From: a virus | Length of the DNA: 64,000 bases | Direction: 5' to 3' (one strand) | IMG/VR virus record: IMGVR_UViG_3300035701_000011 | Span: 33,146 to 97,145 of that record | Part shown: positions 13,680-37,329 of the stretch, piece by piece | Numbering within the stretch: position 1 is the stretch's first letter | Layout of the letters: every line of letters begins with the position of its first letter | Made by a program: the position numbers and the translations under genes | Notes under the pieces: generated by a model | Told to the model about the DNA's origin: nothing | The model's database searches: none | The model's input: only the letters and a program-made list of their open reading frames with translations

Positions 13680-13867
13680 TGATTCCAATTGCTTTTGATG
13701 AAAATACTATAGATTTATTAGATAAAACAAAAATTGCTTGGACTAAAATGATAGAAAGAAGTATAATTTCAAAGGTTGAACATATTTTTTTAGCATTAAA
13801 ATGGGATTTATCACTTATTAAGGAAATTAAACCTAAAAAAGAAAGAAAAAAGAAATGCATTATATAG
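13679..13867 (+). CDS. Hypothetical protein, 62 residues
   Basis: AAAAAAGGAG precedes ATG 13679, which overlaps the previous stop. Helical with a strongly basic tail (KPKKERKKK). The next gene starts inside its last codons. No family recognised. Confidence 0.45.
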   Translation: MIPIAFDENTIDLLDKTKIAWTKMIERSIISKVEHIFLALKWDLSLIKEIKPKKERKKKCII

Positions 13868-14604
13868 TTAGTTATTCAGGTGGAAAAGATTCAACTGCGA
13901 TGCTTATAAGACTTATAGAAGAAAAAAGACCTATAGATGAAATTTTATTTTTTGATACAGGATGGGAATTTTCTGCTATTTATTCTACAGTTAAAAAAAT
14001 CGAAGAATATATTAAAAGACCTATTGTTTGGCTTAAACCTGAAAAATCTTTTGAATGGTACATGTATCAGAAATCAAATAAACGTGGATTAGGTTTAGGA
14101 TTTCCTCGATTTAATATTCGTTGGTGTACAGGTTTAAAGAAAAATACGATTAAAACATATTTAAAAGATAAAAAACCATATATTAACTATCTCGGTCTTA
14201 CTAAAGGAGAAGAATATAGAGCAAAAAGATATGCAGATGATAAAACAATATTACTTCCTTTAATTGAATGGAAAATGACAGAACAAGATTGTTTAAATTA
14301 TTGTAAAAATAAAGGATTTGATTTTGAAAATCTTTATAGTTGTATGAGTAGTGCTTCATGTTGGTGTTGTCCTTTGCAACCTATGACATCATTAAGAGGT
14401 TTATATAAAAATTTTCCCGATTTATGGAAAAAATTATTAGAAATGCAATCTAAAACTAAAAGTGCTTTTAAAGTGGGTCATATTAATAATAAAAAAGGAA
14501 AAGATAGATTTCCTCCAATTTATGTTACAGATTTAGATATTCGTTTTAAAAAAGAAATAGAAGATGGAACATTTAATAAAAAAATGCAAAAGAAAAATGA
14601 CTAA
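13855..14604 (+). CDS. PP-loop ATPase, PAPS-reductase-like (1)
   Basis: 249 residues. The PP-loop SYSGGKDSTAML is at the very N-terminus, followed by FFDTGWEF (the usual second motif), WCTGLKK and a cysteine-rich CMSSASCWCCP that could hold a metal or Fe-S centre. This fold adenylates a substrate or reduces PAPS/APS; distant relatives include tRNA thiolation and DndC-type DNA phosphorothioation enzymes. It overlaps a second PP-loop gene, so the two may act together. Substrate unknown. Confidence 0.7.
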   Translation: MHYIVSYSGGKDSTAMLIRLIEEKRPIDEILFFDTGWEFSAIYSTVKKIEEYIKRPIVWLKPEKSFEWYMYQKSNKRGLGLGFPRFNIRWCTGLKKNTIKTYLKDKKPYINYLGLTKGEEYRAKRYADDKTILLPLIEWKMTEQDCLNYCKNKGFDFENLYSCMSSASCWCCPLQPMTSLRGLYKNFPDLWKKLLEMQSKTKSAFKVGHINNKKGKDRFPPIYVTDLDIRFKKEIEDGTFNKKMQKKND

Positions 14605-15568
14605 TAAAATTCAAATCTGGGAATTAAAACAAAGACAGTCATTACCTTTAGAAGCTAAAATAACTTTGGCTAAAACAAGAATAGAACAATTTCATACAAA
14701 AATGGATGGTAATGTATGTGTATCTTTTTCTGGAGGTAAGGATAGTACCGTTCTTCTTCATTTAGTAAGGTCAATTTATCCAGATGTTAAAGCAGTTTTT
14801 GTTAATACAGGACTAGAATGGCCGGAAGTGGTGCAATTTGTCCGAGAAACTGAGAATACAGAGATTATACGTCCCGAGATGACTTTTAAAGAGGTCTTAG
14901 ATACTTATGGTTATCCAGTTACTAGCAAAAAGATTGCCAAAATGATTGATACTCTACAAAATCCCACAAAAGGAAATAAAGTTATTAGAAATCTTTATTT
15001 AACAGGTATTAGGGGAGATGGCAAAAAAGCAACTGGAAGTTGGAAGGTACCAAAGAAGTGGAGATTTTTAATTAAGGCTCCTTTTAAAATTTCCGACCAA
15101 TGTTGTGCAGTTATGAAAAAACAACCATTTAAAGAGTATACTAAAAAGACAGGATTACACCCCTATGTTGGCACACAAGCAGCAGAAAGTAGATTAAGAG
15201 AAATTTCTTATTTACAGTATGGATGTAATTCTTTTAAAGGTAAGATTCAATCCAGACCTTTAAGTGTTTGGTTTGAAGATGATATTTGGACATATATTAA
15301 GAAGTTTAATTTAAAGTATGCTACCATCTATGATAAAGGTCAGAAAAGAACTGGATGTATGTTCTGTATGTTTGGTACACATTTGGAAGATGAACCAAAT
15401 AAATTTCAATGTATGGCAAAGACACATCCGCAACTTTGGAATTATTGTATTAATGAAATAGGTGTAGGTAAAGTATTAGATTATATTAATGTACCTTATA
15501 AATTATTAGAAAATAGTACAAATGATGGACAACCTGACCATGAATTACCAATTCATGAACTGGAGTAA
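14597..15568 (+). CDS. PP-loop ATPase, PAPS-reductase-like (2)
   Basis: 323 residues. SFSGGKDSTVLL near residue 47, FVNTGLEWP, SDQCCAVMKK near residue 165 and CMFCMFGTH near residue 255 match the longer PAPS-reductase-family proteins common in phages. The paired cysteines could bind a cluster. It is more like sulfonucleotide reductases (GTQAAESRLRE) than its neighbour. ATG 14597 overlaps the previous gene by 8 bases, implying coupled expression. Confidence 0.72.
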   Translation: MTNKIQIWELKQRQSLPLEAKITLAKTRIEQFHTKMDGNVCVSFSGGKDSTVLLHLVRSIYPDVKAVFVNTGLEWPEVVQFVRETENTEIIRPEMTFKEVLDTYGYPVTSKKIAKMIDTLQNPTKGNKVIRNLYLTGIRGDGKKATGSWKVPKKWRFLIKAPFKISDQCCAVMKKQPFKEYTKKTGLHPYVGTQAAESRLREISYLQYGCNSFKGKIQSRPLSVWFEDDIWTYIKKFNLKYATIYDKGQKRTGCMFCMFGTHLEDEPNKFQCMAKTHPQLWNYCINEIGVGKVLDYINVPYKLLENSTNDGQPDHELPIHELE

Positions 15569-17050: not shown

Positions 17051-17196
17051 TTTATTGTGAAAAGATAAAAAATTATATAGACCAGGAAGAAAAATGTCTT
17101 GCATGTATTTTTTATATAAAAGATGAAGATACTTGTGATTGGGAAAATTGGCATCCTGGATTAATTAAAGGAAAAGATGAATCCAATCTTAATTAA
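17047..17196 (+). CDS. 49-residue Cys-rich protein
   Basis: GGGGAATT precedes ATG 17047. Contains CEKIK...CLAC...C, probably a metal site, and Trp-rich end (CDWENWHPG). Overlaps the following membrane-protein gene by 20 bases. Confidence 0.45.
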   Translation: MIYCEKIKNYIDQEEKCLACIFYIKDEDTCDWENWHPGLIKGKDESNLN

Positions 17197-17545
17197 AGAT
17201 ATTTTAGGAGGATTATTAATATTAACATCTATTGGAGATGCAATAAAATATACTATTCAAGCCAATAAAATTTCGAGAGCAAAAACCGCTAAATCAATGT
17301 CTCGTAAATTTATTAATCTTGCTCTTCTAAATGATTTTGTAAAATTATCTTATGGCATAACAATCAAAGATTTATTTATTATAAGTTCAAGTATTTTAGC
17401 TTTAATTTGTATGATTCATTTATTTGGAATAATTTATAAATTTTATCCTTATAGAATGAGAGGATGTTCTAATTTTAAACGACCTAATATATTTTTATAT
17501 ATAATTAATAGTTTAATTCCAAATCGAATTAGAAAGAGGTTATAA
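17177..17545 (+). CDS. Small membrane protein, PQ-loop/SemiSWEET-like
   Basis: 122 residues with about three hydrophobic helices (IKDILGGLLILTSIGDAIKY; KDLFIISSSILALICMIHLF). The segment KSMSRKFINLALLNDFVKL between helices is like the conserved loop of small PQ-loop proteins met in phage genomes. AAAGGAAAAG precedes ATG. A transport role is only suggested. Confidence 0.4.
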   Translation: MNPILIKDILGGLLILTSIGDAIKYTIQANKISRAKTAKSMSRKFINLALLNDFVKLSYGITIKDLFIISSSILALICMIHLFGIIYKFYPYRMRGCSNFKRPNIFLYIINSLIPNRIRKRL

Positions 17546-19226: not shown

Positions 19227-19408
19227 TGATAGAACACAGAGTTTGGTGGGAAGAAATAGAAAGATGTAAAGGAAAAAATAAAAATGGTTCTCCTTGTCAT
19301 TTACCAACTCGTAGGGGATTTGAAATTAGTCCTGGAAATTTATTTGTTCCTTTAACTTGTTGGAGACATCAAGAACAAGAAAATAAATTAAGGCAAATCA
19401 AAACATGA
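19226..19408 (+). CDS. 60-residue Cys/His zinc-finger protein
   Basis: Pattern CKGKNKNGSPC...CWRH: C-x6-GxxC then C-x2-H, a recurring small phage/bacterial zinc-finger type with unknown function. Start overlaps the SbcD stop and its end overlaps the SbcC start (ATGA), so it is embedded within the SbcCD operon. Confidence 0.55.
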   Translation: MIEHRVWWEEIERCKGKNKNGSPCHLPTRRGFEISPGNLFVPLTCWRHQEQENKLRQIKT

Positions 19409-20184
19409 TAATTAAATCCTTAAAGATTAATAATCTACAACTTATCAAATCAGCTCAGGTTAATTTTGATAAGATTAATATTATTTCTGGAATAAATAAA
19501 GATAATCCTTCCGAAAGTGGTAATGGGTCTGGTAAGTCTACTTTTGTTTTGCGTGCCATTTTATTTTGTCTCTACGGGTATTGCGAGGAAGGTCTAACCC
19601 TCAAAGATTTAATTCGCTTTGAAGAAAAAGAATGTTCAGTTACTTGTGAAATAACCAATAACAATGAACATTACAGAATAATAAGAAAAATACCTAGTGA
19701 ATTACAACTTTTCCTTAATGATAAGGAAATTCAAGCAAATACCGCAACTATTAAACAAAATTTAATAAACGAATATTTTGGTGATGTTAGTTTTTTCAGA
19801 CAATATAGATGTGTTGATTTAAAGAATGGAATAAATGTTTTAGATATGGGTATTGTATCTCTTCGCAAGACATTAATGAGTTTTATAGAAGGTATCTTTA
19901 CTGAAATAAGAACTCGATTATTGGCACAAAAAGTAGAAAGAGAAAGGTATTCAATTGATAAAAAATTATTCAAAAATTTCCTCTCAGAGAAGCGATTAAA
20001 TATCTTAAATGCTTCATTAATTGAAGCAAAAACTGATTATCAACGATTTGAAAAAGAAAGAGATATACAACAAAATATTATTAATAAAATCAAATCAGAA
20101 ATACAATCAAGAGAACAAATTATCTATTATAAAAAATCAGAATTAGAAAAATTAAAAAAAGGACAATGTCCTATAATAAAATGA
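19405..20184 (+). CDS. SbcC/Rad50 homologue, N-terminal half (split gene)
   Basis: 259 residues. Rad50-type ATPase N-lobe: KSLKINNLQLIKSA strand, Walker A NGSGKST near residue 36, Q-loop region FFRQYRC near 130, then an ascending coiled coil. It ends at the apex with GQCPIIK and a stop. The normal protein would continue to a zinc hook and descending coil. The missing half is the separate gene at 20852-21544, with an HNH endonuclease gene between. Both halves keep good coding quality, so assembly in trans is likely. ATG overlaps the previous TGA. Confidence 0.8.
   Translation: MIIKSLKINNLQLIKSAQVNFDKINIISGINKDNPSESGNGSGKSTFVLRAILFCLYGYCEEGLTLKDLIRFEEKECSVTCEITNNNEHYRIIRKIPSELQLFLNDKEIQANTATIKQNLINEYFGDVSFFRQYRCVDLKNGINVLDMGIVSLRKTLMSFIEGIFTEIRTRLLAQKVERERYSIDKKLFKNFLSEKRLNILNASLIEAKTDYQRFEKERDIQQNIINKIKSEIQSREQIIYYKKSELEKLKKGQCPIIK
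20165..20174 (+). repeat. Direct repeat flanking HNH insertion, left copy
   Basis: AATGTCCTAT occurs here at the end of the SbcC N-half and again at 20856-20865 at the beginning of the C-half. Both encode the Cys-Pro-Ile of the hook. It marks the insertion point of the HNH gene. Confidence 0.6.
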
Positions 20185-20852
20185 ACAAATGTATAATTTG
20201 TAAAGAAAAATTTCAACCAAATAGTAATAATCAAAAATGTTGTTCAATTGACTGTTATAAAATTCATAAGAACAACTATCAAATAATTTATCGCAGTAAC
20301 AGGAACCAAGAAAAGAAAATGATTTGTTTGATTTGTAAAAATGAATTTATTAAGATTGGTAATCAAATATGTTGCAGTAAAAAATGTTCTACTATTAATA
20401 AAAAAGAGAAACATATAATTTATCGATTAAATCATAAAAAAGTAAAAGAAATTTATGATAATAATTATCGGCAAATTCATAGAATAGCAATAAATGAATC
20501 ACATAAAAAACGTTTTGAATCTGATATTAATTTTAGAATAATGTGTAATTTAAGAAGTAGATTACTTTCAGCAATTAGGGGTAATCCAAAATTAGAAACT
20601 ACTACAAAATTAGTTGGATGTAGTATAGATAAATTTAAGAAACATCTTGAAAAACAGTTCAAAATAGGGATGAATTGGAATAATTGGGGTAGGGGTTGGA
20701 GTGGAATGGGCATGAAAGAATGGCATATAGACCATATTATTCCTTGTTGTCAATTTGATTTAACGAAAAAATTGGAACAAAAGAAGTGTTTTCATTATAC
20801 TAATCTTCAACCTCTGTGGGCAATAGAAAACATGCAAAAAAGGAAAAAATAA
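20181..20852 (+). CDS. HNH homing-type endonuclease (family A, copy 3) splitting SbcC
   Basis: 223 residues from ATG 20181 (an ATG at 20166 is an alternative). Two zinc fingers at the N-terminus (CIICKEKF...CCSIDC; CLICKNEF...CCSKKC), a basic middle, then the shared core: EWHIDHIIPCC, QFDLTKKLEQKKC, YTNLQPLW. A glycine/tryptophan insertion (NNWGRGWSGMGM) precedes the core, unique among the copies. It overlaps both SbcC halves (ATGA and TAATG), leaving no room for a self-splicing intron. Confidence 0.8.
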   Translation: MNKCIICKEKFQPNSNNQKCCSIDCYKIHKNNYQIIYRSNRNQEKKMICLICKNEFIKIGNQICCSKKCSTINKKEKHIIYRLNHKKVKEIYDNNYRQIHRIAINESHKKRFESDINFRIMCNLRSRLLSAIRGNPKLETTTKLVGCSIDKFKKHLEKQFKIGMNWNNWGRGWSGMGMKEWHIDHIIPCCQFDLTKKLEQKKCFHYTNLQPLWAIENMQKRKK

Positions 20853-21544
20853 TGGAATGTCCTATTCTAAAAGAAAAATATAACCTAATATATAAAGAAA
20901 AAGAGCAAGAAATTTTAAAATTAAATGAAGAGATTAACGATTATAAGAAACAATTAGAATTAGAACAAGATTCTATTTCTTATTATAATGATATGTTGGA
21001 ATCAATTCGCAATAAAGAAGAAAAAGTACGACAAAAATTAACACAATTAAAGTCTGCATTTCAATTTGCTGATTATAAATATACTAAAGCCGACATCGTA
21101 ATCTATGATGAAGCGGTAAAAATTTTAGATACATTTGCTGGTGAATATATAAAGGAATGGTTATCTTCTCTTTCAGTAATTATAAATAACCTTCTTCAAC
21201 CTATAAATATTTCAGTAGAGTTTACTGCGGATAAAGATTTTTTACATGTTTATGATAATGAACAAATGTTAAAGTATGACCAATTATCGAAAGGTCAGAA
21301 GACATTTTTGGGGTGTTTATTTAAATTTGCTATCTTAATGCAGCAAAATAAATCGGGGATAGTGATTTTAGACGATGGACTCAATGATATTGATTGGATT
21401 AATTTTAAAAATTTAATAAATATAATTAAAACTCTTCCCTTTCAAGCAATCTGTGTGTATCAGGGATTGCAAGAAAAAATAGAAGATACAAAACATTTTT
21501 TAGTTATAAGAGAAAAAGGAATTTCAAATGTTAAAACTGAATAA
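20852..21544 (+). CDS. SbcC/Rad50 homologue, C-terminal half (split gene)
   Basis: 230 residues. Begins MECPILKEKY, which repeats the hook sequence ending the N-half, then a descending coiled coil, and the ATPase C-lobe: signature QLSKGQKTFLG near residue 143, Walker B GIVILDDGL near residue 170, and a QGLQEK end region near the usual H-loop. AAGGA is 8 bases before ATG. Together with 19405-20184 it rebuilds a complete but short gp46-like ATPase. Confidence 0.8.
   Translation: MECPILKEKYNLIYKEKEQEILKLNEEINDYKKQLELEQDSISYYNDMLESIRNKEEKVRQKLTQLKSAFQFADYKYTKADIVIYDEAVKILDTFAGEYIKEWLSSLSVIINNLLQPINISVEFTADKDFLHVYDNEQMLKYDQLSKGQKTFLGCLFKFAILMQQNKSGIVILDDGLNDIDWINFKNLINIIKTLPFQAICVYQGLQEKIEDTKHFLVIREKGISNVKTE
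20856..20865 (+). repeat. Direct repeat flanking HNH insertion, right copy
   Basis: Second copy of AATGTCCTAT, 691 bases from the first; see the left copy at 20165-20174. Confidence 0.6.
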
Positions 21545-21803
21545 GAAAAAACATTTTAATTGTAAAAATTGTATCTGCCAAGAAAAGGTAAAATTTCAGA
21601 ACAATGTATTATTTTGTTTTGGATTAATTAAAAAAACTTATTATAAAGAAGACCACTATCGTTTTTGTATAATTAAAGGAAAAAAACGTTCAGCAAATGA
21701 TATAATGTTAGAAGAACTTCATAGTATGTTAATGGGATTGTCAAGGATTCTTTTTCAAAAAAGATTAGAAGAAGTAAATAAAGATAGGAGATTAAAAAAA
21801 TGA
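21528..21803 (+). CDS. Cys-rich hypothetical protein
   Basis: 91 residues: FNCKNCICQEK, then CFGL and FCII, possible metal site, followed by a helical basic C-terminus. ATG inside the SbcC C-half end; its stop overlaps the M16 start (ATGA). Function unknown. Confidence 0.5.
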   Translation: MLKLNKKKHFNCKNCICQEKVKFQNNVLFCFGLIKKTYYKEDHYRFCIIKGKKRSANDIMLEELHSMLMGLSRILFQKRLEEVNKDRRLKK

Positions 21804-22954
21804 ATACTATTCAAATTAATAAGCCAGGGAATTCTACTATGGTATTAGTTATGGCTCCTACAGGAGCCTATTACGAAGATGATAAATATAAAGGTATATC
21901 TCATTTTTTAGAACATATGTGTTTTAAGGGAACTAAAAAAAGAACCAGAGAAGAAATAAATTCTACAATAGAAAATGTAGGTGGTGATATTAATGCTTTT
22001 ACTGATTGGGAAGTTACTGCTTATTGGGCAAGAGTTGGAAATGCCTACAAAAAAATAGCATTTGATATTATTGAAGATTTAGTTACTAATCCTATTATTC
22101 CTGATAAAGAAGTAGATAAAGAAAGAGAAGTAATTATACAAGAATTAAAAATGGGCGTGGATGATGCCAAAGGATATACTTGGGATTTATTTCATTCTGC
22201 TCTTTATGAAAAAAAATCTGGATTTCATATATCAATTATAGGAACCAAAGAATCTCTTTATAGAATTAAACAAGAGGATTTGGAAAAATATCACAATCAA
22301 TATTATAAATCAAATAATTTAACTAAAATAATCGTGGGTGATGTTCCCAATATTGAAAAATTTCAAATGAAATCCTACAATATAAAAGAAAATTTTGTGA
22401 ATAAAAATCCTAAAGATAAATTAGTTACTCGCAAAGATATGACTCAAGCAAATATTATTATAGGAAATAGTACAAAACCTTTTGTATCTACTCAAGAAGG
22501 AGAAATTTTAAATTGGTTATTATCTTCTCTCTATAATGATATGAGTGGTAGATTGTTTTCTGTTATTAGAGAACAAAATCATTTAGTTTATAGAATAAGA
22601 TTTGGAATTGATTATAATAGAAATAGAGAAATGACTTGGAGTGTTTCTCTGGGATTAGATAAGAAGAATATTGAAAAAGCAAGAAAATTAATTGTTCAAG
22701 AATTAATCAGACCTGCTACAAAAAAAGAAATTGAAACTATCATAAATAAAACTATAGGTACTTTAGATTTATATTTGGATGATAATATTCATATAGCAAA
22801 TCAAATCGCTTATTTTGTTACTCGTAATATTGATTATAAATTCTTTATTTATGACTACAAAAAATATATAAAGCAAACTGCAAATTTAATTAATGATTAT
22901 ATTCAAGATTTACATTTTGAAAAAAATGTATTAGCTGGAGTAGTAGGAGAATAG
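21800..22954 (+). CDS. M16-family zinc peptidase
   Basis: 384 residues. The inverted zinc motif HxxEH appears as HFLEHMCFKGT near residue 36, with the distal Glu in EREVIIQEL near residue 113 and NAFTDWEVTAYW between. The second, substrate-contact half includes RLFSVIREQNHLVYRI. These mark the full M16B fold (processing peptidase, PqqL and RiPP-maturing peptidases). All zinc ligands are present. Such a peptidase is rare in phages. It starts a run of protein-processing genes (deformylase, M50, ClpP). Substrate unknown. Confidence 0.85.
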   Translation: MNTIQINKPGNSTMVLVMAPTGAYYEDDKYKGISHFLEHMCFKGTKKRTREEINSTIENVGGDINAFTDWEVTAYWARVGNAYKKIAFDIIEDLVTNPIIPDKEVDKEREVIIQELKMGVDDAKGYTWDLFHSALYEKKSGFHISIIGTKESLYRIKQEDLEKYHNQYYKSNNLTKIIVGDVPNIEKFQMKSYNIKENFVNKNPKDKLVTRKDMTQANIIIGNSTKPFVSTQEGEILNWLLSSLYNDMSGRLFSVIREQNHLVYRIRFGIDYNRNREMTWSVSLGLDKKNIEKARKLIVQELIRPATKKEIETIINKTIGTLDLYLDDNIHIANQIAYFVTRNIDYKFFIYDYKKYIKQTANLINDYIQDLHFEKNVLAGVVGE

Positions 22955-23389
22955 ATGATTAAATATTTTATATTTACCTTAATTTTAGCCATTATAACTG
23001 CTCTATGGGAGATTCAGGCTGAAGGACATGATGGTTGGGCTAGGAATTTACCTACTTTCCGCATCAATGTATTCTTTAAAAAGTTATTAGGTGGTAAAAG
23101 TTTGACTGGTTATCATATCTTTTTATTACTCTTATTTATAACAGTATTTCATGGATTATTTATTAATGAATTAGGAACTTGGAAAATAGAATGTACTATT
23201 ATTGGACTAGTATCTTGGTTTTTTGTAATAGAAGATGCATTGTGGTTTATTTTTAATCCTCATTATACATTAAAAAAATTCTGTAAAGGAAAGATAGATT
23301 GGCATCGCAGATGGTTCTGTAAATTACCGATTACTTATTGGTGGGGAATGATTATAGGTACTTTATTATTAATTTTAGGAGGAAAATAA
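22955..23389 (+). CDS. Four-helix membrane protein, conserved type
   Basis: 144 residues with about four hydrophobic helices and the conserved-looking segments EIQAEGHDGWARNLPTFR (after helix 1) and SLTGYHIF. I recall bacterial hypothetical membrane proteins with the same EGxxGWAxxLPT motif, but no function. Starts at the base after the M16 stop, so the two are likely co-translated. Confidence 0.55.
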   Translation: MIKYFIFTLILAIITALWEIQAEGHDGWARNLPTFRINVFFKKLLGGKSLTGYHIFLLLLFITVFHGLFINELGTWKIECTIIGLVSWFFVIEDALWFIFNPHYTLKKFCKGKIDWHRRWFCKLPITYWWGMIIGTLLLILGGK

Positions 23390-23390
23390 A

Positions 23391-23510
23391 ATGTATTATT
23401 GTAATGATTGTGATATTGCACATGAAGAAAGAAATTGCCCTCTTTGTGAAGCAAAAAAAGAAATTAAACAACTAGAACAAGAAATAGAAAGATTAAATAA
23501 TTTAGAATAA
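23391..23510 (+). CDS. 39-residue zinc-knuckle/coiled-coil micro-protein (copy 2)
   Basis: Begins MYYCNDCDIAHEERNCPLCE and ends EIERLNNLE, matching the gene at 4413-4532 along its whole length. TTAGGAGGAAAATAA precedes ATG. The heptad helix could form a homodimer or mixed dimer with copy 1. Confidence 0.6.
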   Translation: MYYCNDCDIAHEERNCPLCEAKKEIKQLEQEIERLNNLE

Positions 23511-23514
23511 TAAA

Positions 23515-24102
23515 ATGCCATATAAAAATAAAAAAGTTAGAACTAAATACCATAAAATATATTATTCGAAGCATAAAGATAAAATTTTAAGAATTGCAAA
23601 AAAATACATAAAATTACATAAAATAAAAGTTTCTATTTATCAAAAAAATTATCGCAAGAAGCATAAAGAAAAAATTAAACAATATAATGAACAACATAAG
23701 AAAAAAATTAATTTACAGATGAGAAAATGGAGAAAAGAAAATAGAAAAAAGATAACTCATTATATCAGGCAACGTAGAAATAATAATTTAGATATTAAAT
23801 TAAAAGATTATTTAAGAAATAGATTATATCAAACTTTAAAAGGACTTTATAAATCTAAATCAATTTTAAAATTACTCGGTTGCTCTATTAATTTTTTAAA
23901 AAATCATTTAGAAAAATTATTTGCTAAAGGTATGAATTGGCAAAACTATGGTAAGTGGCATATAGACCACATCAAGCCTTGTGCTTCATTTGACTTGAGC
24001 AAACCCGAAGAGCAACGTAAGTGCTTTCATTATAAAAATCTTCAGCCCTTATGGGCGAAAGAAAATTATATTAAACACGATAACATTATAAAAGAGGAAT
24101 AG
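23515..24102 (+). CDS. HNH homing-type endonuclease (family A, copy 4)
   Basis: 195 residues: a very Lys-rich array of YxxxHKxKI units, then NYGKWHIDHIKPC, SFDLSKPEEQRKC and YKNLQPLW. No zinc finger at the N-terminus. It separates the M16/membrane genes from the deformylase gene, whose ATG follows its stop directly. Confidence 0.78.
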   Translation: MPYKNKKVRTKYHKIYYSKHKDKILRIAKKYIKLHKIKVSIYQKNYRKKHKEKIKQYNEQHKKKINLQMRKWRKENRKKITHYIRQRRNNNLDIKLKDYLRNRLYQTLKGLYKSKSILKLLGCSINFLKNHLEKLFAKGMNWQNYGKWHIDHIKPCASFDLSKPEEQRKCFHYKNLQPLWAKENYIKHDNIIKEE

Positions 24103-24729
24103 ATGCTCAAAGATAAATTTCAAAATATTGAAGAATTTGATTTATATATAAAAGAACAATTGGATAGACAAGTTAAAGGATATTTGACTTATACAGAAAG
24201 AAAACAATTAAAAATATTATCGGATAAGAATTATAAACCTATTTTTACAAAAGAAGAAAAACCTAAACTTCCTATAGTTACTGATATAAATGAATTAAAA
24301 AAACCTTGCCAAGAAGTAACTAAGGAAGATAACATTTCCGAAATAATCCAAAAACTTAAAGATACCTTAGAAAGTAGAGGTGGGCTTGGAATTTCAGTCA
24401 ATCAAGTAGAAATTAAAAAAAGAATCTCTTATATAAAAATCCCTAAATTCACCAAAGATAAAAGAATAGAATTTAATGAATATATCTTGATTAATGCTAA
24501 AATAATAGAAAAAGATAAACCTATTAAGGTTAAAAATGAAGGATGTTTGTCTTTCCCTGGAGTTTATGTAGATACATTAAGATATGTATTTTGTACAGTA
24601 CAATTTTTAAATGAAAAAATGGAACAACAAACTGGAACGTTTCAAGATTTAGAGAGTCTTGTGGTACAACACGAATGTTCGCATCAAGAAGGTAAAACCA
24701 TTTTCGATTATAAATGGAGAAATAAATGA
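24103..24729 (+). CDS. def: Peptide deformylase
   Basis: 208 residues. The three deformylase motifs are present: GLGISVNQ (GxGxAAxQ type), EGCLSFPG near residue 145 with the metal Cys, and QHECSH near residue 189 with two metal His and the catalytic Glu. About 60 extra N-terminal residues form a helical extension. It would remove N-formyl groups from nascent peptides. Phage deformylases are known mostly from marine phages, so presence here is notable. Overlaps the M50 gene by 4 bases. Confidence 0.85.
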   Translation: MLKDKFQNIEEFDLYIKEQLDRQVKGYLTYTERKQLKILSDKNYKPIFTKEEKPKLPIVTDINELKKPCQEVTKEDNISEIIQKLKDTLESRGGLGISVNQVEIKKRISYIKIPKFTKDKRIEFNEYILINAKIIEKDKPIKVKNEGCLSFPGVYVDTLRYVFCTVQFLNEKMEQQTGTFQDLESLVVQHECSHQEGKTIFDYKWRNK

Positions 24730-25304
24730 TTTTATTATTTTTAATAAGTTTAATAATTTGTATTTTTTGTCATGAATTTGCACATTTAATAACAGCAAAA
24801 AAATGTGGTTGTGGAGTTTTAGTTTTTAGTATAGGATTTGGAAAACCAATTTATAGTTTTGAATGGAAAAAAACTCGTTATAATTTCACTCCTTTTTTAC
24901 TGGGAGGATATTGTAAATTAGAAGGAGAATTAGATGGCAAATCAAACTCTCCAATAGCATTTACCAATTTATCCTATAGAAAAAAATTAATGATTGCTTT
25001 GGCAGGAGTAACTACAAATATGTTAATGGGCTCAATGATTTTTTTAATAGGTAGATTTATTCATTGTTATACATTAACTTATTTTGGATATTTAAGTTTT
25101 CTTTTAGGTCTTACAAATGCTATCCCATTTCCTGCATTAGATGGTAGTTATCCTATTTTAGTTTGGTTAGAAAAATTTTATGGAAAAGAAAAAGGATATA
25201 AATTAATGGGAATTGTTTGTAAATGGGGATTTATTATTCTTATGATATTAAATATATTATGTATTCCTTATCTTATTCATTTAATAAAACAAGGGATTTT
25301 ATAA
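24726..25304 (+). CDS. M50 (site-2 type) intramembrane protease
   Basis: 192 residues, mostly membrane helices. HEFAH at residues 16-20 in the first helix and NAIPFPALDG near residue 130 give the complete zinc site of site-2 proteases. GGYCKLEGELDG and a GVTTNMLMG helix match the family. No PDZ domain, so this is a minimal S2P. It could cut a membrane-bound regulator or signal-like peptide of the host. ATGA overlap with the deformylase and TAATG overlap with the transporter. Confidence 0.82.
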   Translation: MILLFLISLIICIFCHEFAHLITAKKCGCGVLVFSIGFGKPIYSFEWKKTRYNFTPFLLGGYCKLEGELDGKSNSPIAFTNLSYRKKLMIALAGVTTNMLMGSMIFLIGRFIHCYTLTYFGYLSFLLGLTNAIPFPALDGSYPILVWLEKFYGKEKGYKLMGIVCKWGFIILMILNILCIPYLIHLIKQGIL

Positions 25305-26476
25305 TGAAAATAAATAAAAAACTTTTTTGGATTTTTGTACTCAGTTCCTCTGTTTATTTTACTCAAGGAATTGAAGGTCTTCCTGGATTGGCTTTAACAT
25401 TTTATTTAAAAGAAAAATTACATCTTAATCCTTCAACTATAATGTATCTTGGGTCAATCATAGGTCTTGCTTGGTTAATAAAACCATTATGGGGATATTT
25501 ATGTGATAATTATTTAACAAAAAAGAAATGGATAGTATTTTCTTTATTAGGAAGTTTAATAACTTGTCTTTATTTAGGATTAAATCCTTTTCTTGCCTTA
25601 CCTATTATTATCTTGTTGGCTTCAATAGGAAGTTGGACTACAGCAATAAGAGATGTAGCGGTAGATGGGATTATGTGTGTGGAAGGGAAAGAAGCAAATG
25701 AATGTGGTAGAATTCAAAGTATCCAGTGGACATCTATTACTATTGCAGGAATTATTGCAGGTCTTATTGGTGGATATGTTGCTGACCATTTTAATTATCA
25801 ATTTGGATATTTATGTTTAATTCCCTTCTATTTAATAATTATGGGAGTCGTATTAAGATATAGAACAACTGTACCAAAAAATAGAATAAAATCTATATCT
25901 ATTATAGATTCTATTTTATCTTATAAAGAATTATTTACTAATAAAAAATTCTTAATTGGTTGCTTATTTTTATTTCTCTATAATTTTAATCCTTCATTTG
26001 GTACTCCATTATTTTTTATAGAGAGAGATTCGTTTCATTGGTCTGGTACATTTATGGGGATATTGGGAGCCATTACTTCAGGTATAAGTATTATTGGGTC
26101 GATTTTATATTGGAAATTTGGAAAGAAAATAAATATTAAAAAATGTCTATTCTGGTCTGTATTTATTGGAGCTGGAACTACATTATGTTATCTTTATTTT
26201 ACACCAATTAGTGCTGTAATTTATGGTCTAATATTTTCATTGGCAGGAATGTTCATTTTTCTTAATGTGATGGCATGGATGGCTGAATCTACTATCACAG
26301 GGAAGGAAGCCACTTCATTTGCCTTACTTTGTAGTATAAATAATCTTGCAGGAACTTGTTCTGGTCTTACTGGAGCATTTCTTTTTCCAAAAATAGGATT
26401 ACAACCATTGATTATAGTTTCGGCATTAACGAGTTTTGCATGTTTACCTATTTTAAAAAGATTGGAAATAAAATGA
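25304..26476 (+). CDS. MFS transporter, folate/biopterin-transporter-like
   Basis: 390 residues, about 12 membrane helices. YFTQGIEGLPGLALTFYLKE, WLIKPLWGYLCDN and AIRDVAVDGI resemble the BT1/folate-biopterin branch and AmpG-like major facilitator proteins (conserved KP-GxxxD loop). The start at 25304 follows the M50 stop. Transporters of this size are very unusual in phages. Substrate unknown; peptide, pterin or muropeptide are candidates by family only. Confidence 0.75.
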   Translation: MKINKKLFWIFVLSSSVYFTQGIEGLPGLALTFYLKEKLHLNPSTIMYLGSIIGLAWLIKPLWGYLCDNYLTKKKWIVFSLLGSLITCLYLGLNPFLALPIIILLASIGSWTTAIRDVAVDGIMCVEGKEANECGRIQSIQWTSITIAGIIAGLIGGYVADHFNYQFGYLCLIPFYLIIMGVVLRYRTTVPKNRIKSISIIDSILSYKELFTNKKFLIGCLFLFLYNFNPSFGTPLFFIERDSFHWSGTFMGILGAITSGISIIGSILYWKFGKKINIKKCLFWSVFIGAGTTLCYLYFTPISAVIYGLIFSLAGMFIFLNVMAWMAESTITGKEATSFALLCSINNLAGTCSGLTGAFLFPKIGLQPLIIVSALTSFACLPILKRLEIK

Positions 26477-26577
26477 ATAACGAAAAATTTGAATACGATT
26501 TATTAGAAGATTTAAGATTTTTAGAAGAGAAATATTCTCATATAGAAAAAGATTACCAACCCAGACAGGAGGAATAA
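26473..26577 (+). CDS. 34-residue acidic protein
   Basis: ATGA overlap with the transporter. A short acidic helix (YDLLEDLRFLEEKYSHIEKDY) ending in the GACAGGAGG site of the ClpP gene. Could be a true mini-protein or only a leader for coupling. Confidence 0.4.
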   Translation: MNNEKFEYDLLEDLRFLEEKYSHIEKDYQPRQEE

Positions 26578-27168
26578 ATGAATAGACCAAGAAGAGAAGA
26601 AGAACCAATAGAAGAATCTTTGGGAGACAAAAAAAACCGTTTCAATGAAGAATATTATTTTAAAATGTTAAACAAGAACAGAATAATATTATTATATGAT
26701 GAAATTGGTAATATTTCTGCTGATGTAGTATGTTCCAAAATTAAAGTCATGAATATTCTTGATACTAAAAAAGAAATAACAATCGAAATAAATTCCCCTG
26801 GAGGAGATATTTCTTACGGATTTTCTATAATTAATGCTATGGAACAAAGTAAGGCACCAATTCATACAATAATTAGTGGACAATGTTGTAGTATGGCAGC
26901 TATGATTAGTATAGTAGGCAAAAAAAGAAGTATATATTATAATTCTTACTGGATGAATCATCCTCTTTCTGAGGGGCAAGCAGACTATTTAAGTTTTATT
27001 AAAGATAGAACTACTTTTTTAATACATTTGGATAAAATGACAGAAAATCTTTTAAAAAAATATACTAAACTAAATAGAAAAGATTTAATAAAGATTGCTA
27101 CTGGCGAATTATGGTTATCAGCAGAAGAATGTTTGAGAAAAGGTATTGTAGATAAAATAATAAAATAA
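26578..27168 (+). CDS. ClpP-like serine protease
   Basis: 196 residues. INSPGGDISYG near residue 75 is the conserved hairpin; catalytic Ser is in GQCCSMAAM near residue 104; catalytic His in YWMNHPLS near residue 126. The Asp position appears to be Glu (GELWLSAEE), a change seen in other phage ClpP-like proteins. It may act in protein turnover or capsid processing; being in the rightward unit beside M16 and M50 suggests turnover. CAGGAGGAATAA precedes ATG. Confidence 0.8.
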   Translation: MNRPRREEEPIEESLGDKKNRFNEEYYFKMLNKNRIILLYDEIGNISADVVCSKIKVMNILDTKKEITIEINSPGGDISYGFSIINAMEQSKAPIHTIISGQCCSMAAMISIVGKKRSIYYNSYWMNHPLSEGQADYLSFIKDRTTFLIHLDKMTENLLKKYTKLNRKDLIKIATGELWLSAEECLRKGIVDKIIK

Positions 27169-27178
27169 GGAAAATAAA

Positions 27179-28792
27179 ATGACACTTGGTGTGGCTATAA
27201 TAGTTAAAAATGAAGAAAAAGTAATTGAACGAGCTTTATCTTCTTGCAAAGATATAATTGATAAAATCATTATATGTGATACTGGGTCTACAGATTCTAC
27301 TATTGAAAAGATTAGAAATTTTGCAGAAATTAATCATATACAATATGAAATTCATTCAAGAGAATGGAAAAATTTTAGTTGGAATCGTACAGAATTATTA
27401 AAAATTGCTAAAGATAAAACCGATTATTTATTATTACTTGATGCAGATGAAATAGTTGTTATTTCTAAAGATTTTAATAAAGAAAAACTTAATGCCGATG
27501 CCTATTATTTACATTATATAGGTGAATTAGATTATGCTCAACTTCTTTTGATTAACAACAGAATTAATTGGAATTATATAGGAGTAACTCATGAATATAT
27601 AGAATCAAAAGAAGCCAATACTTATATAGATTTGAAAGAAATTAAAATGCAAGATTTTTGTGATGGAACAAATCGTAAAGATAAATTTACAAGAGATATA
27701 CAGTTATTACAACAAGGAATTATAGATGAACCAAGCAATAGTCGTTATCATTTCTATTTAGGACAAAGTTATAAAGATTTAAAAAAATATGAAGAAGCCA
27801 TAAATTATTATTTAAAAACTATAAAATTAAGTTATTGGGTTAAAGAAATTTTTTATTCAAAATATCAAATTGGTAGATGCTTTGAAAATTTAGGAAAGAC
27901 CGATGAAGCAAAAATTGCTTATTTAAAAGCATGGGAATTTAGACCTGGAAGAGCAGAACCATTATATCGTTTAGCAGTTTTATGCCGAAATAATAAAGAG
28001 TATTATCAGGCTTATTTATTTTGTAAAAGAGCATTAGAAATTTCTTATCCTACAGACCATTTATTTTTGGAGAAATCAATATATGATTATTTATTAATAT
28101 TCGAATTGAGTATAAATGCATATTATGTAGGTCGTTATACAGAATCCTTAGAACTTTGCAAAAAATTAATGAAAATGGAAAATATTCCCGAATCAATTCT
28201 AATGCAGAACAGAATTAATATCCAATTCAGCGAATTAAAATTATATGGTAGTATTCTTACTTCTACTTTTGATAGAGAATCTGCTTTAGAAAATTTAAAA
28301 GATGTTTATAATATTTGTAATAAGTTAAATATTCCTGTTTTTCCAAATGCAGGAACTTTATTAGGAATTATTCGAGAAGGAGATTTTATCAGTCATGATG
28401 AAGATATAGATTTTGGAATAGAAATAAATAATTATTCTCCTCAATTAATAAAAGAATTAGAAAATAATGGATTTAAATTTGAACATACTTTTGGAACCGT
28501 AGAATTAGGTTATGAATTAAGATTTACAAAAAGAGGAATACAAACTGAATTTTCTTTATTTTATAATAAAAAAGATTATATTTGTACCTATTGTTATAGT
28601 GATGATGGCAAAATTTATGAATTAAAATATAAAAAATTTAAATTAGAAAAGTTTAATTTTAAAAATATAAAAATTAAAGTACCGAATAATCCCGAAGAAT
28701 ATTTAAGACAACAATATGGAGATGATTGGAGAGTTCCAAAAAAAGATTGGAATTATCTGACTGACCCCAAAAATATAATATTGGAGAAATAA
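27179..28792 (+). CDS. GT2 glycosyltransferase - TPR - LicD fusion
   Basis: 537 residues in three parts. Residues 1-110: GT2 family (AIIVKNEEKVIERAL, CDTGSTDST, LLLDADE). Residues about 170-300: tetratricopeptide-like helices (YHFYLGQSYKDLKKYEEA; YQIGRCFENLGKTDEA). Residues about 365-535: LicD-type transferase (AGTLLGIIREGDFISHDEDI, D-x-D metal site; end YLRQQYGDDW). LicD proteins transfer phosphocholine-like groups to glycans. The fusion suggests one enzyme adds a sugar and then a phospho-substituent. First gene of the glycan island. Confidence 0.8.
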   Translation: MTLGVAIIVKNEEKVIERALSSCKDIIDKIIICDTGSTDSTIEKIRNFAEINHIQYEIHSREWKNFSWNRTELLKIAKDKTDYLLLLDADEIVVISKDFNKEKLNADAYYLHYIGELDYAQLLLINNRINWNYIGVTHEYIESKEANTYIDLKEIKMQDFCDGTNRKDKFTRDIQLLQQGIIDEPSNSRYHFYLGQSYKDLKKYEEAINYYLKTIKLSYWVKEIFYSKYQIGRCFENLGKTDEAKIAYLKAWEFRPGRAEPLYRLAVLCRNNKEYYQAYLFCKRALEISYPTDHLFLEKSIYDYLLIFELSINAYYVGRYTESLELCKKLMKMENIPESILMQNRINIQFSELKLYGSILTSTFDRESALENLKDVYNICNKLNIPVFPNAGTLLGIIREGDFISHDEDIDFGIEINNYSPQLIKELENNGFKFEHTFGTVELGYELRFTKRGIQTEFSLFYNKKDYICTYCYSDDGKIYELKYKKFKLEKFNFKNIKIKVPNNPEEYLRQQYGDDWRVPKKDWNYLTDPKNIILEK

Positions 28793-28793
28793 A

Positions 28794-29330
28794 ATGTATT
28801 ACTTTTGGTCTGATACTCATTTGGGTCATTGGAACATTGTAAAATATTGTAATAGACCATTCAAAACATTGAAAGAAATGGATTCTACTTTAATTAAAAA
28901 TTTCAATGATAGAGTAGATGAAAATGATGTCGTATTCTTTTTCGGAGATTTTTGTATGAAAAAATCTTCTGAAGCTAGTGAAGCTCCACAAGATGCCTTT
29001 GATTATTATCGGAATCAGTTAAAATGCAAAAATATTATTTTTATTAAAGGAAATCACGATAAAAATAATTCAACCAAAACTATAATTGAATCTGTTGTAA
29101 TCGATTTTGGTGGAAGTCACATCTACATGACTCACGACCCTAAGTATGCCAAAGAAGACTTTCAATTTAATTATTGCGGTCATACACATGGAAAATTCGG
29201 AAAGTTCCGAAAATTAGGACATAAATCTGTTATTGTAGACCTTTCGGTAGAAAATTGGGATTATAGACCTGTAAATATTAATGATATTAATCAAGCGTAT
29301 TCGAAATGGATAAGGGGAAATAAAAAATGA
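28794..29330 (+). CDS. Metallophosphoesterase
   Basis: 178 residues with the full calcineurin-like set: SDTHLGH, FFGDFC, KGNHDK, MTHDP and CGHTHGK. All metal ligands are present. Small stand-alone members in phages hydrolyse phosphodiesters or pyrophosphates; place within the glycan island could mean nucleotide-sugar clean-up. Substrate not predictable. Confidence 0.75.
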   Translation: MYYFWSDTHLGHWNIVKYCNRPFKTLKEMDSTLIKNFNDRVDENDVVFFFGDFCMKKSSEASEAPQDAFDYYRNQLKCKNIIFIKGNHDKNNSTKTIIESVVIDFGGSHIYMTHDPKYAKEDFQFNYCGHTHGKFGKFRKLGHKSVIVDLSVENWDYRPVNINDINQAYSKWIRGNKK

Positions 29331-29518
29331 AAAATCGAATTAATTGGGGAATTTTATTGTGGGCTGCATTTTTAATTTTAATAACTTCTGATTGTAAAAA
29401 TTTAAAATATTTGCCTAACTTAATAAAAGAATTACATAAACTATTTAAAAAAGGTTCTGGTTATACGGAAGATAGTGGATTTATCCTGATTCATAAAAGT
29501 AAAGTAAAGGATTTATAA
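29327..29518 (+). CDS. Small membrane-anchored protein
   Basis: 63 residues: one N-terminal hydrophobic helix (WGILLWAAFLILIT) followed by a basic helix and a beta-like end. The residues before Cys23 (TSDC) do not make a good lipobox. Overlaps both neighbours by 1-4 bases. Function unknown. Confidence 0.45.
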   Translation: MKNRINWGILLWAAFLILITSDCKNLKYLPNLIKELHKLFKKGSGYTEDSGFILIHKSKVKDL

Positions 29519-30318
29519 TGAAGATTTTAATTACTGGAGCAGATGGATTTTTAGGTAAACAATTAATGTTTACTCTTTATCCTACCAATAATGTAGTAGA
29601 TATTGATAAAGAAATAGATATTACTGAATATTCTAATTTACAACAAACTATACTTCATTATGCTCCGAATATTATTATTCATTGTGCTGGAATTGTTGAC
29701 CCAGCCATTTGTGAAGAAAATAAAGAATTGGCATATAAAGTAAATATAATTGGAACTGCTAATTTAATACAAATTTGTAAAGAATTGAATATTAAATTAA
29801 TTTTTATATCTACCGATTGCATTTTTTCGGGAATAAAAGAAGAATATTATGAAAATGATATTCCCGACCCAATTAATTATTATGGTTGGACTAAATATTG
29901 TGGAGAAAATTTAGTTAAAACTTTAGATAACTATTTAATTCTTAGACTTTCTTGGCTTTATGGAAAAGATTCTAAATTTATAAAACAAATATTAAACTGT
30001 AATTCTCCAATTTATTTAGACCATAATCAAATTCGCTATCCTCTTTTAGTAGACGATTTGACTTATATAATTTCTGATTTAATCAATGATAATAGCAAAA
30101 GAATATATCATATTAGAGGACAAGAAGGAGTTACTAAATTTTATCTAGCTCATTTAATCTCTGAAAAATTTAATTTAAAAAATTCTTATAATTTTTTAGA
30201 AGAAAAAGATGATTCTTACCTTAGACCAAATATTAAATTCAATTATAATTATTTTAGTCAGATTCATAGTTTAATTGATGGACTAGAAATAATTAAACAT
30301 CAATCGGAGAATAGATGA
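29518..30318 (+). CDS. SDR sugar-nucleotide reductase, RmlD-like
   Basis: 266 residues. Rossmann GADGFLGKQL at the N-terminus, IIHCAGIVDP, FISTDCIFSG with catalytic Ser/Thr, and YGWTKYCGE with the Y-x3-K pair: the extended SDR pattern of RmlD (dTDP-4-dehydrorhamnose reductase). LRLSWLYG supports this subfamily. It would make a deoxyhexose donor from a host intermediate. No RmlABC partners in the window, so host enzymes must supply substrate, or the product is another reduced nucleotide sugar. Confidence 0.75.
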   Translation: MKILITGADGFLGKQLMFTLYPTNNVVDIDKEIDITEYSNLQQTILHYAPNIIIHCAGIVDPAICEENKELAYKVNIIGTANLIQICKELNIKLIFISTDCIFSGIKEEYYENDIPDPINYYGWTKYCGENLVKTLDNYLILRLSWLYGKDSKFIKQILNCNSPIYLDHNQIRYPLLVDDLTYIISDLINDNSKRIYHIRGQEGVTKFYLAHLISEKFNLKNSYNFLEEKDDSYLRPNIKFNYNYFSQIHSLIDGLEIIKHQSENR

Positions 30319-32093
30319 AAGTAATAATTTTGGCTGCTGGACAGGGTACTCGTTTAGGACAATTAGGAGAAAAAATTCCAAAATGTTTATTGCCTTTAAA
30401 TGGAAGTACTTTGCTGGAACAATCGATACAAACATTAAAAAAACTAAATTTAACTGACATTACTGTAATTATTGGATATATGGCAGAAAAAATACAAATT
30501 GTTTGTCATGAGGTTAAAACAGTAATTAATTCAGAATATTCTACTTCTCAACCTCCATATTCTGCAAGATTAGGAATTATATCTAATGGTTTTTTAGAAG
30601 ATGATTATTTAATAATTGATGGAGATTTAATATTTGATTCTTCAATTATTGAAAATTTGATTAATAATTATGTTAATAAATCTGTTTTAGTAACTTATAC
30701 TGCATTAACTCCACTTGAAGCAGGGAGTCGTATTGAAGAAGACAATAACAAAATAAAATCCATTGGAAGATACATTTCTCCTACTTTTCCTTTTCAAATT
30801 CATGCAGGAATAACTAGAATTACAAAAAACGATTCTAAACAATACATTGAATTAATAACCTCCAATAAATTCAAAAAAATGGAAATGCATGTTCTTTTAA
30901 ATGAATTTTGTCGAAATAATGACCTATATTATTATTCCATAGATAAAGAGAAAATTAATATTAAACCTGCTCATCTTAATTTAATCGGCGGTTCTTTTTC
31001 AGAAGTTATAACAGTTAGAGATAATGATATAATTAAAAAACAATGCACAAAAGACCCAAAAAGATTAATTAATGAAATTGAATATTTAAAACAATTACCA
31101 GAATCTTTAAAATCTTATTTTACTGAATTAATCGATTCAGAAATAGGAGAAGACTTTGCATGGTATACGATGAAATTTTTTCCTGAACTCTCATTTAAAA
31201 AATTGATTTTATCTGGAAAAATTACAACTACCGATTCCATTGACTTCTTAATTTATTTGGTTAATTTTATGAAAAATAACGTATATAATATAAATCCTAC
31301 AGCAACACATAAAAATTATGTAAATTCAGTTCATTATTATAGAGTTTTAGTTAGAAAAGATATTACGTGTGAGCGAGCCCCAATTTTTCAAAAAATATTT
31401 AATGCCGATTCAATATATTTAAATGGAGTAGAATATACTAATATTTTACCATTAATTAATCAAATGTATTGTTGTGAACAACTTACTAAGAAATTAACTC
31501 CCCCCCAATTAAATCTTATTCATGGAGATTTACATTTTGATAATATTTTAGTAAATCCTAATAAACATCCCTTTAATTTTAAATTAGTTGACCCGAAAGG
31601 ATTTAAAGTTGGAGATTCAATGTATGATATTTCAAAATTAATACATGATTTTAATGGATTGTATGATTTTATTTATGAATATATGTTTGATTTAAAATGG
31701 AAAATAAAAAATAATAAACTTTATGCTACTTTAAATTTCCATAATTGTAAAGCTGTAGATGAATTTAATAAAATTAAAGATTATTTTATAATAGAATTAA
31801 CTAAAATTTTTGAGGAAGACCAAAATTGGTATTTACGAGCTAAATTTATTGAAGCAATTAATTTCTGTTCTCTTCAACCATTCCATTTAGTCAATGATGG
31901 TATTGAGAGTAAAAGTATTGCTATGTATTTAATAGGAGTAAAATTAATTAATTATTTTTGGGATTGTTTACCTAAAGAATTAAAAATAAGTAATAATCAT
32001 TATAAAGTAATTAATATTAATACAATTGAAGATTATACTATAACCCAAAATTTAAATCAAAATAAAGAAATAGAAAAGTTCCCAGGAATATAA
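30315..32093 (+). CDS. Nucleotidyltransferase - kinase fusion (LicC/LicA-like)
   Basis: 592 residues. Residues 1-230: sugar/choline-phosphate nucleotidyltransferase (ILAAGQGTRLG, KIPKCLLPLNG, LIIDGDLIF). Residues about 235-560: aminoglycoside/choline kinase fold (IHGDLHFDNIL near 401, VDPKGFKVGDSMYD near 425). The order is a cytidylyltransferase or uridylyltransferase joined to a small-molecule kinase. With two LicD-type transferase genes alongside, it could activate choline or a similar alcohol, or a sugar-1-phosphate. The substrate cannot be read from sequence. ATGA overlap with RmlD. Confidence 0.75.
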   Translation: MKVIILAAGQGTRLGQLGEKIPKCLLPLNGSTLLEQSIQTLKKLNLTDITVIIGYMAEKIQIVCHEVKTVINSEYSTSQPPYSARLGIISNGFLEDDYLIIDGDLIFDSSIIENLINNYVNKSVLVTYTALTPLEAGSRIEEDNNKIKSIGRYISPTFPFQIHAGITRITKNDSKQYIELITSNKFKKMEMHVLLNEFCRNNDLYYYSIDKEKINIKPAHLNLIGGSFSEVITVRDNDIIKKQCTKDPKRLINEIEYLKQLPESLKSYFTELIDSEIGEDFAWYTMKFFPELSFKKLILSGKITTTDSIDFLIYLVNFMKNNVYNINPTATHKNYVNSVHYYRVLVRKDITCERAPIFQKIFNADSIYLNGVEYTNILPLINQMYCCEQLTKKLTPPQLNLIHGDLHFDNILVNPNKHPFNFKLVDPKGFKVGDSMYDISKLIHDFNGLYDFIYEYMFDLKWKIKNNKLYATLNFHNCKAVDEFNKIKDYFIIELTKIFEEDQNWYLRAKFIEAINFCSLQPFHLVNDGIESKSIAMYLIGVKLINYFWDCLPKELKISNNHYKVININTIEDYTITQNLNQNKEIEKFPGI

Positions 32094-32094
32094 A

Positions 32095-32679
32095 ATGAAT
32101 AAAATAGAAGCAAAACAAGTATTATTTGATGTTATCGATACTCTAGAAAAATATCAAATCGATTATTTCCTTTTTGGCGGAACTTTATTAGGAGCAATAA
32201 GAGAAAAAGATTTCATAGAAAATGATAATGATATTGATATAGGAATTTTACAACCTTTTTGGGAAAATAATATATTATTTCAGCAAATAACCTGGAATTT
32301 ATTATCAAAAGATATAAAAATATGTAATCTAGCAGCAACTCATGTAATGAATTTAAATAAAAATGGGATAGGTGTTGATTTATGTTATTTCAAAAAAGAA
32401 AATAATTATCACGTTACAGAGGGGTGTGGCTGGAAAATTAAAATTCCTAGTCATTATTTAAAAAAATTAGAATCTATAACTTTTTTAGGAAAAAAATGTT
32501 ATATTCCTAATAATATAGAAAATTTTTTAACTGAATTTTATACCGATACTTGGAAGAATAAAATTTCTCATAACGATACTAAATTTGGTTTACTGGAATG
32601 GTATGGCGAAAAGGAAAAAATAATAACATTTACAACTTTTTTATATATTTATAAAGATATTATAAATAAGGAAAATTAA
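32095..32679 (+). CDS. LicD-family transferase
   Basis: 194 residues of a single LicD/nucleotidyltransferase domain: YFLFGGTLLGAIREKDFIEN, then NDIDIGI with the D-x-D metal pair, and FLTEFYTDTW at the end. It shares all these with the C-terminus of the gene at 27179. Likely acceptor is a glycan made by neighbouring glycosyltransferases; the donor is unknown (phosphocholine in the best known members). Confidence 0.75.
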   Translation: MNKIEAKQVLFDVIDTLEKYQIDYFLFGGTLLGAIREKDFIENDNDIDIGILQPFWENNILFQQITWNLLSKDIKICNLAATHVMNLNKNGIGVDLCYFKKENNYHVTEGCGWKIKIPSHYLKKLESITFLGKKCYIPNNIENFLTEFYTDTWKNKISHNDTKFGLLEWYGEKEKIITFTTFLYIYKDIINKEN

Positions 32680-32682
32680 AAA

Positions 32683-37313: not shown

Positions 37314-37329
37314 AAGGAAAAAATAATCT

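Follow-up and report, generated by a model that had tools for sequence, protein, structure and literature searches.

The peptidase and membrane protein gene cluster

The DNA analyzed here (the window) is a stretch of 64,000 nucleotides, bases 33146–97145 of the linear 97,145-base IMG/VR virus record IMGVR_UViG_3300035701_000011 (G000), and this work deals with a cluster of protein-processing and membrane protein genes at window positions 21800–27168. G000 is a tailed phage that encodes a tape-measure protein (Pfam), a family B DNA polymerase, RecA, SSB and Prim-Pol; a large minus-strand block is structural by appearance.

All of the cluster genes lie on the plus strand. The first is an accessory gene for an M16 metallopeptidase of 384 amino acids (21800–22954; PF00675 2.9e-30, PF05193 3.3e-16), followed by mem144 (22955–23389), encoding a predicted four-helix membrane protein of 144 amino acids without a match in Pfam, PHROG or NCBIfam, by sm39 (23391–23510), encoding a Cys-rich mini-protein with a helical tail, and by a free-standing HNH/endonuclease VII-like gene (23515–24102; phrog_1035 6.8e-08). 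Then come a peptide deformylase (PDF) with an N-terminal extension of ~60 amino acids (24103–24729; PF01327 1.1e-32), an M50 intramembrane metalloprotease consisting of a minimal RseP-type core without PDZ (24726–25304; PF02163 9.9e-32), and a major facilitator superfamily (MFS) transporter of the BT1 (folate-biopterin)/AmpG-like branch (25304–26476; PF03092 1.4e-28, phrog_2034 8.4e-24), whose start is most likely 25304, overlapping the M50 stop, and not 25223. The last two genes are sm34 (26473–26577), an acidic mini-gene of 34 amino acids overlapping the MFS stop, and a ClpP-like serine protease of family S14 (26578–27168; PF00574 2.6e-30). A preliminary description of this DNA had placed M16, PDF, M50, MFS and ClpP here, and the Pfam matches, far above cut-off, confirmed all five; mem144 had been missed. 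The successive intergenic gaps are 0, 1, 4, 0, -4, -1, -4 and 0 bases, and AGGAG- or GGAG-like Shine-Dalgarno sequences precede most of the starts, so that the cluster reads as one translationally packed run. It is flanked by SbcD/SbcC-like genes upstream and by glycosyltransferase and phosphoesterase genes downstream.

Leaving HNH genes aside, four of the six open reading frames (ORFs) of at least 100 amino acids inside the cluster are peptidases or deformylase by Pfam. Elsewhere in the window no peptidase was found by Pfam among ~51 such ORFs (the first of the scans used E 1e-8). This excess gave a Fisher p of ~4e-5, or ~2e-4 once the three peptidase-like genes upstream of the window were included, with the ORF denominators of the latter test counted by hand. 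The gathering of the cluster genes is not due to chance.

The active sites were compared with those of the relatives described below. In PDF the motifs GxGxxxNQ, EGCLS and HExxH are intact, and the catalytic Gln, Cys and HExxH are invariant in 14 copies. Its N-terminal extension (24103–24280) occurs in most relatives and is absent from L005, L029, L030 and L031. The M50 protein carries CHEFAH (HExxH) and NAIPFPALDG (NxxPxxxxDG), and His16, Glu17, His20, Asn131 and Asp139-Gly140 are invariant in nine copies. It matched RseP chains by sequence with an E-value of 1e-19, and its AlphaFold2 (AF2) model, with a predicted local distance difference test (pLDDT) score of 85, was paired by Foldseek with RseP (5e-08), mjS2P (6e-04) and SpoIVFB (4e-03). 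By sequence and predicted fold, it is an RseP core, that is, a site-2 protease. M16 is processing-peptidase-like, with an active N-terminal and an inactive C-terminal domain; its closest solved relative is the ‘processing protease’ 3hdi, and H35-x-x-E38-H39 and the downstream Glu residues are invariant in all four phage copies. In ClpP, Ser105 and His128 are invariant in 12 phage copies. Since archaea do not formylate Met-tRNA, the presence of PDF argues for a bacterial host.

Conservation of the cluster and its exchangeable peptidases

Related loci were retrieved from IMG/VR with M50, mem144 and MFS as queries and, since these are themselves cluster genes, further ones with a non-peptidase neighbor that is located 5 kb upstream of the cluster (17177–17545) and encodes a small membrane protein. 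This small membrane protein is kept in nearly all of the relatives, at 54% even in the distant L030. The comparison set comprised 16 related IMG/VR records, or 17 with G000; because several are close kin (L005/L006/L007, L008/L009 and L026/L027), the counts given below are not counts of independent events. A nucleotide search against cultured phages returned no relative of G000, and a tblastn search with the presumed terminase found none among cultured phages either. An IMG/VR scan with M16 as the single query gave no match, its patterns being too specific. The cultured-phage collection yielded few M50 and HtrA matches, mostly in records resembling bacterial contigs.

The order SbcD-SbcC-mem144-(sm39)-PDF-M50-slot-MFS-ClpP-phosphoesterase, in which the slot holds variable genes, recurred in the relatives and was kept down to ~45–60% protein identity; PDF, M50 and MFS were found together even in two records at 31–37% identity. 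Over whole records, PDF is present in 14 of the 17 and M50 in 15, one copy each, and wherever the two genes occur together (14 records) they are 0.34–1.64 kb apart. The two records lacking M50 are a 28-kb fragment and a contig ending inside mem144. The non-peptidase query yielded two new records: G015/L056, with HtrA-like, M50, MFS and M16 genes within one 11-kb stretch, and G016/L061, whose contig ends inside mem144, shortly past SbcC. Purifying selection was indicated for mem144, PDF, M50, MFS, M16, ClpP and the second ClpP (ClpP2) of some relatives by ratios of non-synonymous to synonymous substitution (dN/dS) of 0.11–0.32. The best conserved cluster gene is mem144 (dN/dS 0.11–0.21), with 76–82% identity in five relatives and 43–46% in others. 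Its AF2 model (pLDDT 68, moderate confidence) found no fold match in the PDB, and no cellular relative appeared in a scan of genomes with only two patterns. The MFS protein is 55–89% identical in most relatives; it matches PF03092 over the whole chain (100 bits, the cut-off being 22) and the NCBIfam folate/biopterin and AmpG models below their cut-offs.

M16 was found only in G000, G006, G014 and G015, each time no farther than ~10 kb from M50 and MFS. When these four copies were placed in a tree together with 80 cellular relatives, they formed a single clade (100/100). M16, which occupies three different positions, therefore spread inside the virus lineage and was not captured anew each time. 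The nearest cellular M16s, sampled with two peptide patterns, came from DPANN archaea and Omnitrophota; they are likewise of the HxxEH type, and the phage clade is separate and far from all of the 80 sampled. Inferring the host from them was rejected, as only two patterns had been scanned and the phage clade is so distant. M16 of Bacillus phage G (gp2), also of the HxxEH type, has 35% identity to the cluster M16 over 65% of its length; unlike the lineage studied here, phage G was not among the M50 matches. Co-occurrence in relatives, which the preliminary description had left to be checked, was thus found both for M16 with M50 and MFS, in every record carrying M16, and for PDF, M50, MFS and ClpP, which follow in order in nearly all relatives. 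Independent capture of the cluster genes was rejected on the basis of this synteny and the M16 tree.

Genes of unrelated roles might also have accumulated by accident, captured one by one, with PDF serving translation, ClpP as a head protease and the rest as cargo. Phage PDFs are known, and some function in vivo (PMC5591237), the translation genes of huge phages include PDF (PMC7162821), and both papers show PDF occurring singly in phages; accessory PDFs are also common on plasmids and integrons (PMC12690207). The cluster PDF shares with those of cyanophage S-SSM7 and Vibrio phage Vp16 (PMC5591237) intact active-site motifs and the status of a phage-borne accessory gene, but differs from the known phage PDFs, which are read as translation helpers, in its constant M50 neighbor and, mostly, in the extension of ~60 amino acids. 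Similarly, the cluster ClpP matches the phage head-maturation family phrog_94 (3e-31), and has the ClpP fold and the triad Ser and His in common with such proteases (phrog_94, NCBIfam NF045542); it scores similarly against cellular and phage models. In contrast to them, it is encoded outside the structural block and on the opposite strand, with ~30 kb separating it from the putative genes for portal and capsid, and four records have two copies, one to either side of MFS. This place, strand and duplication make a head protease the less fitting role, although the ClpP could be active with a host unfoldase, have an altered activity or be a head protease. An accidental gathering also fits poorly with an order kept across a deep lineage and with M16 copies forming a single clade, and is considered very unlikely.

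The small genes bear on another possibility, that of a cluster maturing and exporting a peptide in the manner of ribosomally synthesized and post-translationally modified peptides (RiPPs). M16, M50 and MFS types do occur in such systems, and M50 gave very weak matches to NCBIfam daptide and epipeptide proteases (6.5e-07 and 0.009); however, it matches RseP at 5e-29, and the MFS protein belongs to the BT1/AmpG branch. The genes starting at 23391 and 26473 had been put forward as possible precursors. The Cys-rich sm39, which has a charged helix, has homologs at the equivalent place in four relatives (L002, L010, L011 and L018; 53–73% identity), and sm34 in a single one (L011; 74%); most relatives lack the small genes or have different ones. 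Neither small ORF is conserved as a precursor, and Pfam revealed no RiPP modification enzyme in the window. The production of a secreted peptide, suggested in the preliminary description, was consequently dropped, and a RiPP-like function is extremely improbable.

The slot between M50 and MFS, together with the cluster edges, is where unrelated peptidases are exchanged among the relatives. ClpP2 is found there in L008, L009, L012 and L018; M16 in L011 and L032 and also in the window, where it forms the upstream edge; M17 leucyl aminopeptidase in L005 (1e-55) and L026, and nearby in L029 (1.6e-64); M42 in L030 (2e-72) and L031; a trypsin-like/HtrA protease in L029–L031; and an HslV-like protein in L002 (phrog_1040 5e-16). 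M48-like zinc proteases (L016, L030, L031 and L032) scored near the cut-off, and SprT-like proteins (L008 and L009) weakly, below it. Additionally, a membrane protein of 175–180 amino acids with no known family lies between M50 and MFS in four relatives (L005 12856–13389, L008 11966–12493, L010 12139–12675 and L012 10531–11073), and is not present in the window.

Such an exchange of contents at a fixed place would be expected if the proteases destroyed host defense proteins or receptors, in counter-defense or superinfection exclusion, with the slot tracking host defenses; DNA methylases and Mom, a DNA modification protein, are also encoded nearby in some relatives. The core enzymes, by contrast, are conserved under purifying selection and not swapped, and no defense target is known, so the probability given to this explanation is low.

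The HtrA-like protease and a putative proteolysis island

The 33 kb of G000 upstream of the window were examined as two loci (L033 and L034). At ~3.5 kb before the window they encode a membrane-anchored HtrA/DegS-like protease (L034:12311–13162, equal to G000 C1:28810–29661; PF13365 1.1e-21), with DegQ, DegP and DegS as best PDB matches. The gene was detected in 14 of 15 whole records by Pfam (Trypsin_2, PF13365), and in G015 by blastp; the record without a match is a 33-kb fragment. The His-Asp-Ser triad (H118, D166 and S232) is invariant in ten aligned copies, and the hydrophobic segment at residues 11–29 has an N-terminal counterpart in all eight copies tested. The HtrA-like gene lies within 2–4 kb of M50 in L029, L030, L031 and L056, and 12 of 15 records encode HtrA-like, M50 and ClpP proteins together.

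These results are tentatively read as a lineage-wide phage proteolysis island that cuts host membrane or envelope proteins, a reading that we favor while rating it somewhat short of probable. In such an island, the HtrA-like enzyme would trim the outer part of the membrane proteins of the infected cell, M50 would then cut the leftover membrane stub, and ClpP, working with a host unfoldase, and the swapped peptidases (M16, M17, M42 and HslV-like) would finish the fragments in the cytosol. PDF would strip the N-terminal formyl group and so open the N-termini to processing, and MFS and mem144 are assumed to be membrane partners. The net effect would be that a set of host envelope proteins is removed or re-set during infection. 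A narrower form of the proposal is a virus-encoded regulated intramembrane proteolysis (RIP) cascade, with HtrA-like (site-1), M50 (site-2) and ClpP acting serially on a selected membrane protein of the host or the phage, and with the peptidase slot as a plug-in and PDF coupled to it; all of this taken jointly is possible, though doubtful.

The same enzymes could instead supply amino acids. Host proteins would be cut to peptides by ClpP or HslV and to amino acids by M16, M17 or M42 for phage translation, with PDF unblocking N-termini and MFS moving a nutrient. Several slot enzymes are indeed peptide-finishing aminopeptidases and oligopeptidases, but exopeptidases occur in a minority of the records (M16 in four, M17 in three and M42 in two), and the constancy of M50 and of a membrane-anchored HtrA-like protease would be left unexplained. 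Because these two most constant members are membrane proteases, the cutting of membrane proteins is preferred over amino-acid salvage, which appears quite unlikely.

Host stress signalling by intramembrane cleavage had been among the roles first suggested for the cluster. Such cleavage is a plausible role, the more so given the HtrA/DegS-like gene; no signalling substrate was identified. As an explanation of its own, an HtrA-like/M50/ClpP cascade would target a single anti-sigma factor or other membrane-tethered regulator, or a few of them, and thereby switch host or phage transcription. An HtrA-family protease, an RseP-type M50 and ClpP in one phage match the enzyme types of DegS-RseP-ClpXP (the sigma-E pathway), and a weak sigma-70-like protein, below cut-off, is encoded upstream of the window (L034:4700–5410). 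The phage set differs from that pathway in being virus-encoded and in the usually large distance between its HtrA and M50 genes, and its proteases are free of the PDZ sensor domains. Neither a ClpX-type unfoldase of its own nor an anti-sigma substrate was found, no membrane-tethered regulator or anti-sigma gene was seen adjoining the cluster, and the swapped exopeptidases (M17 and M42) would be superfluous. Such signalling is considered unlikely.

Several observations also weigh against the proteolysis island and the cascade. PDZ domains regulate both RseP and DegS; the M50 protein (192 amino acids) has no PDZ match and no room for one, and no PDZ match was obtained in the HtrA-like copies tested. 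The catalytic motifs had been described as intact, which holds for M16, PDF and M50, all conserved in relatives, but ClpP has Glu at the position of the triad Asp, or Gln where L008, L009 and L018 are concerned, in their copies distal to MFS. The phage records yielded no ClpX-type unfoldase, with just weak AAA_2 matches in two of them; phages are known to have adaptors for host Clp proteases (PMC6873191). ClpP was not found in two large M50-bearing records, G006 and G015, and PDF not in G015, so both are dispensable. A distance of 20–74 kb separates the HtrA-like gene from M50 in most members. The slot and edges also carry non-peptidases (GNAT, deaminase, Mom, methylases, LicD, glycosyltransferases and HNH), and a non-exhaustive search in and near the cluster recognized no membrane-tethered regulatory substrate.

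Nevertheless, at the level of its sequences the cluster is a new and well-supported combination of enzyme families already known, from which we infer the mechanism. The open-access literature searched gave no account of a conserved proteolysis locus of several enzymes that is built around an intramembrane protease and has a peptidase slot and, to our knowledge, two-step intramembrane proteolysis encoded by a phage has not been described. Phages are otherwise known for host DNA breakdown and for single borrowed proteases; if the proposed working holds, hosts would be taken over by a new route, at their membrane, and the locus would offer a set of HtrA and site-2 proteases in minimal form, free of PDZ domains, that could be studied.

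Neighboring genes

Upstream of the window, G000 carries genes for an amidoligase, an M14/AstE-like hydrolase and a ThiF-like E1 (L034 10059–11977 and L033 11433–12023). The HtrA-like gene adjoins the M14/AstE-like gene (a weak match), with the amidoligase gene close by; L030 and L056 have an amidoligase gene next to the cluster as well. The possible sigma-70-like factor (G000 C1:21199–21909; Sigma70_r2, E 2e-4) has a Cys-rich insert and a C-terminal helix-turn-helix.

The HNH gene inside the cluster is mobile and stands outside the proposed proteolysis system. Seven similar or other HNH genes are found elsewhere in the window: with that at 23515, the endonuclease VII-like ones start at 10413, 13014, 20166, 43570 and 52823, and other HNH genes at 55804 and 59742. 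The gene at 20166–20852 cuts the SbcC-like gene into two ORFs (19405–20184 and 20816–21544), and in the relatives HNH genes sit at different sites, where they break up SbcD, SbcC or MFS genes.

Downstream of the cluster, a glycan cluster (27179–38133) contains LicD, glycosyltransferase, PIG-L, WbqC and RmlD genes and a nucleotidyltransferase-kinase-like fusion, and is in part common to L002. Finally, a pair of adjoining PAPS-reductase-like genes is located at 13855–15568.

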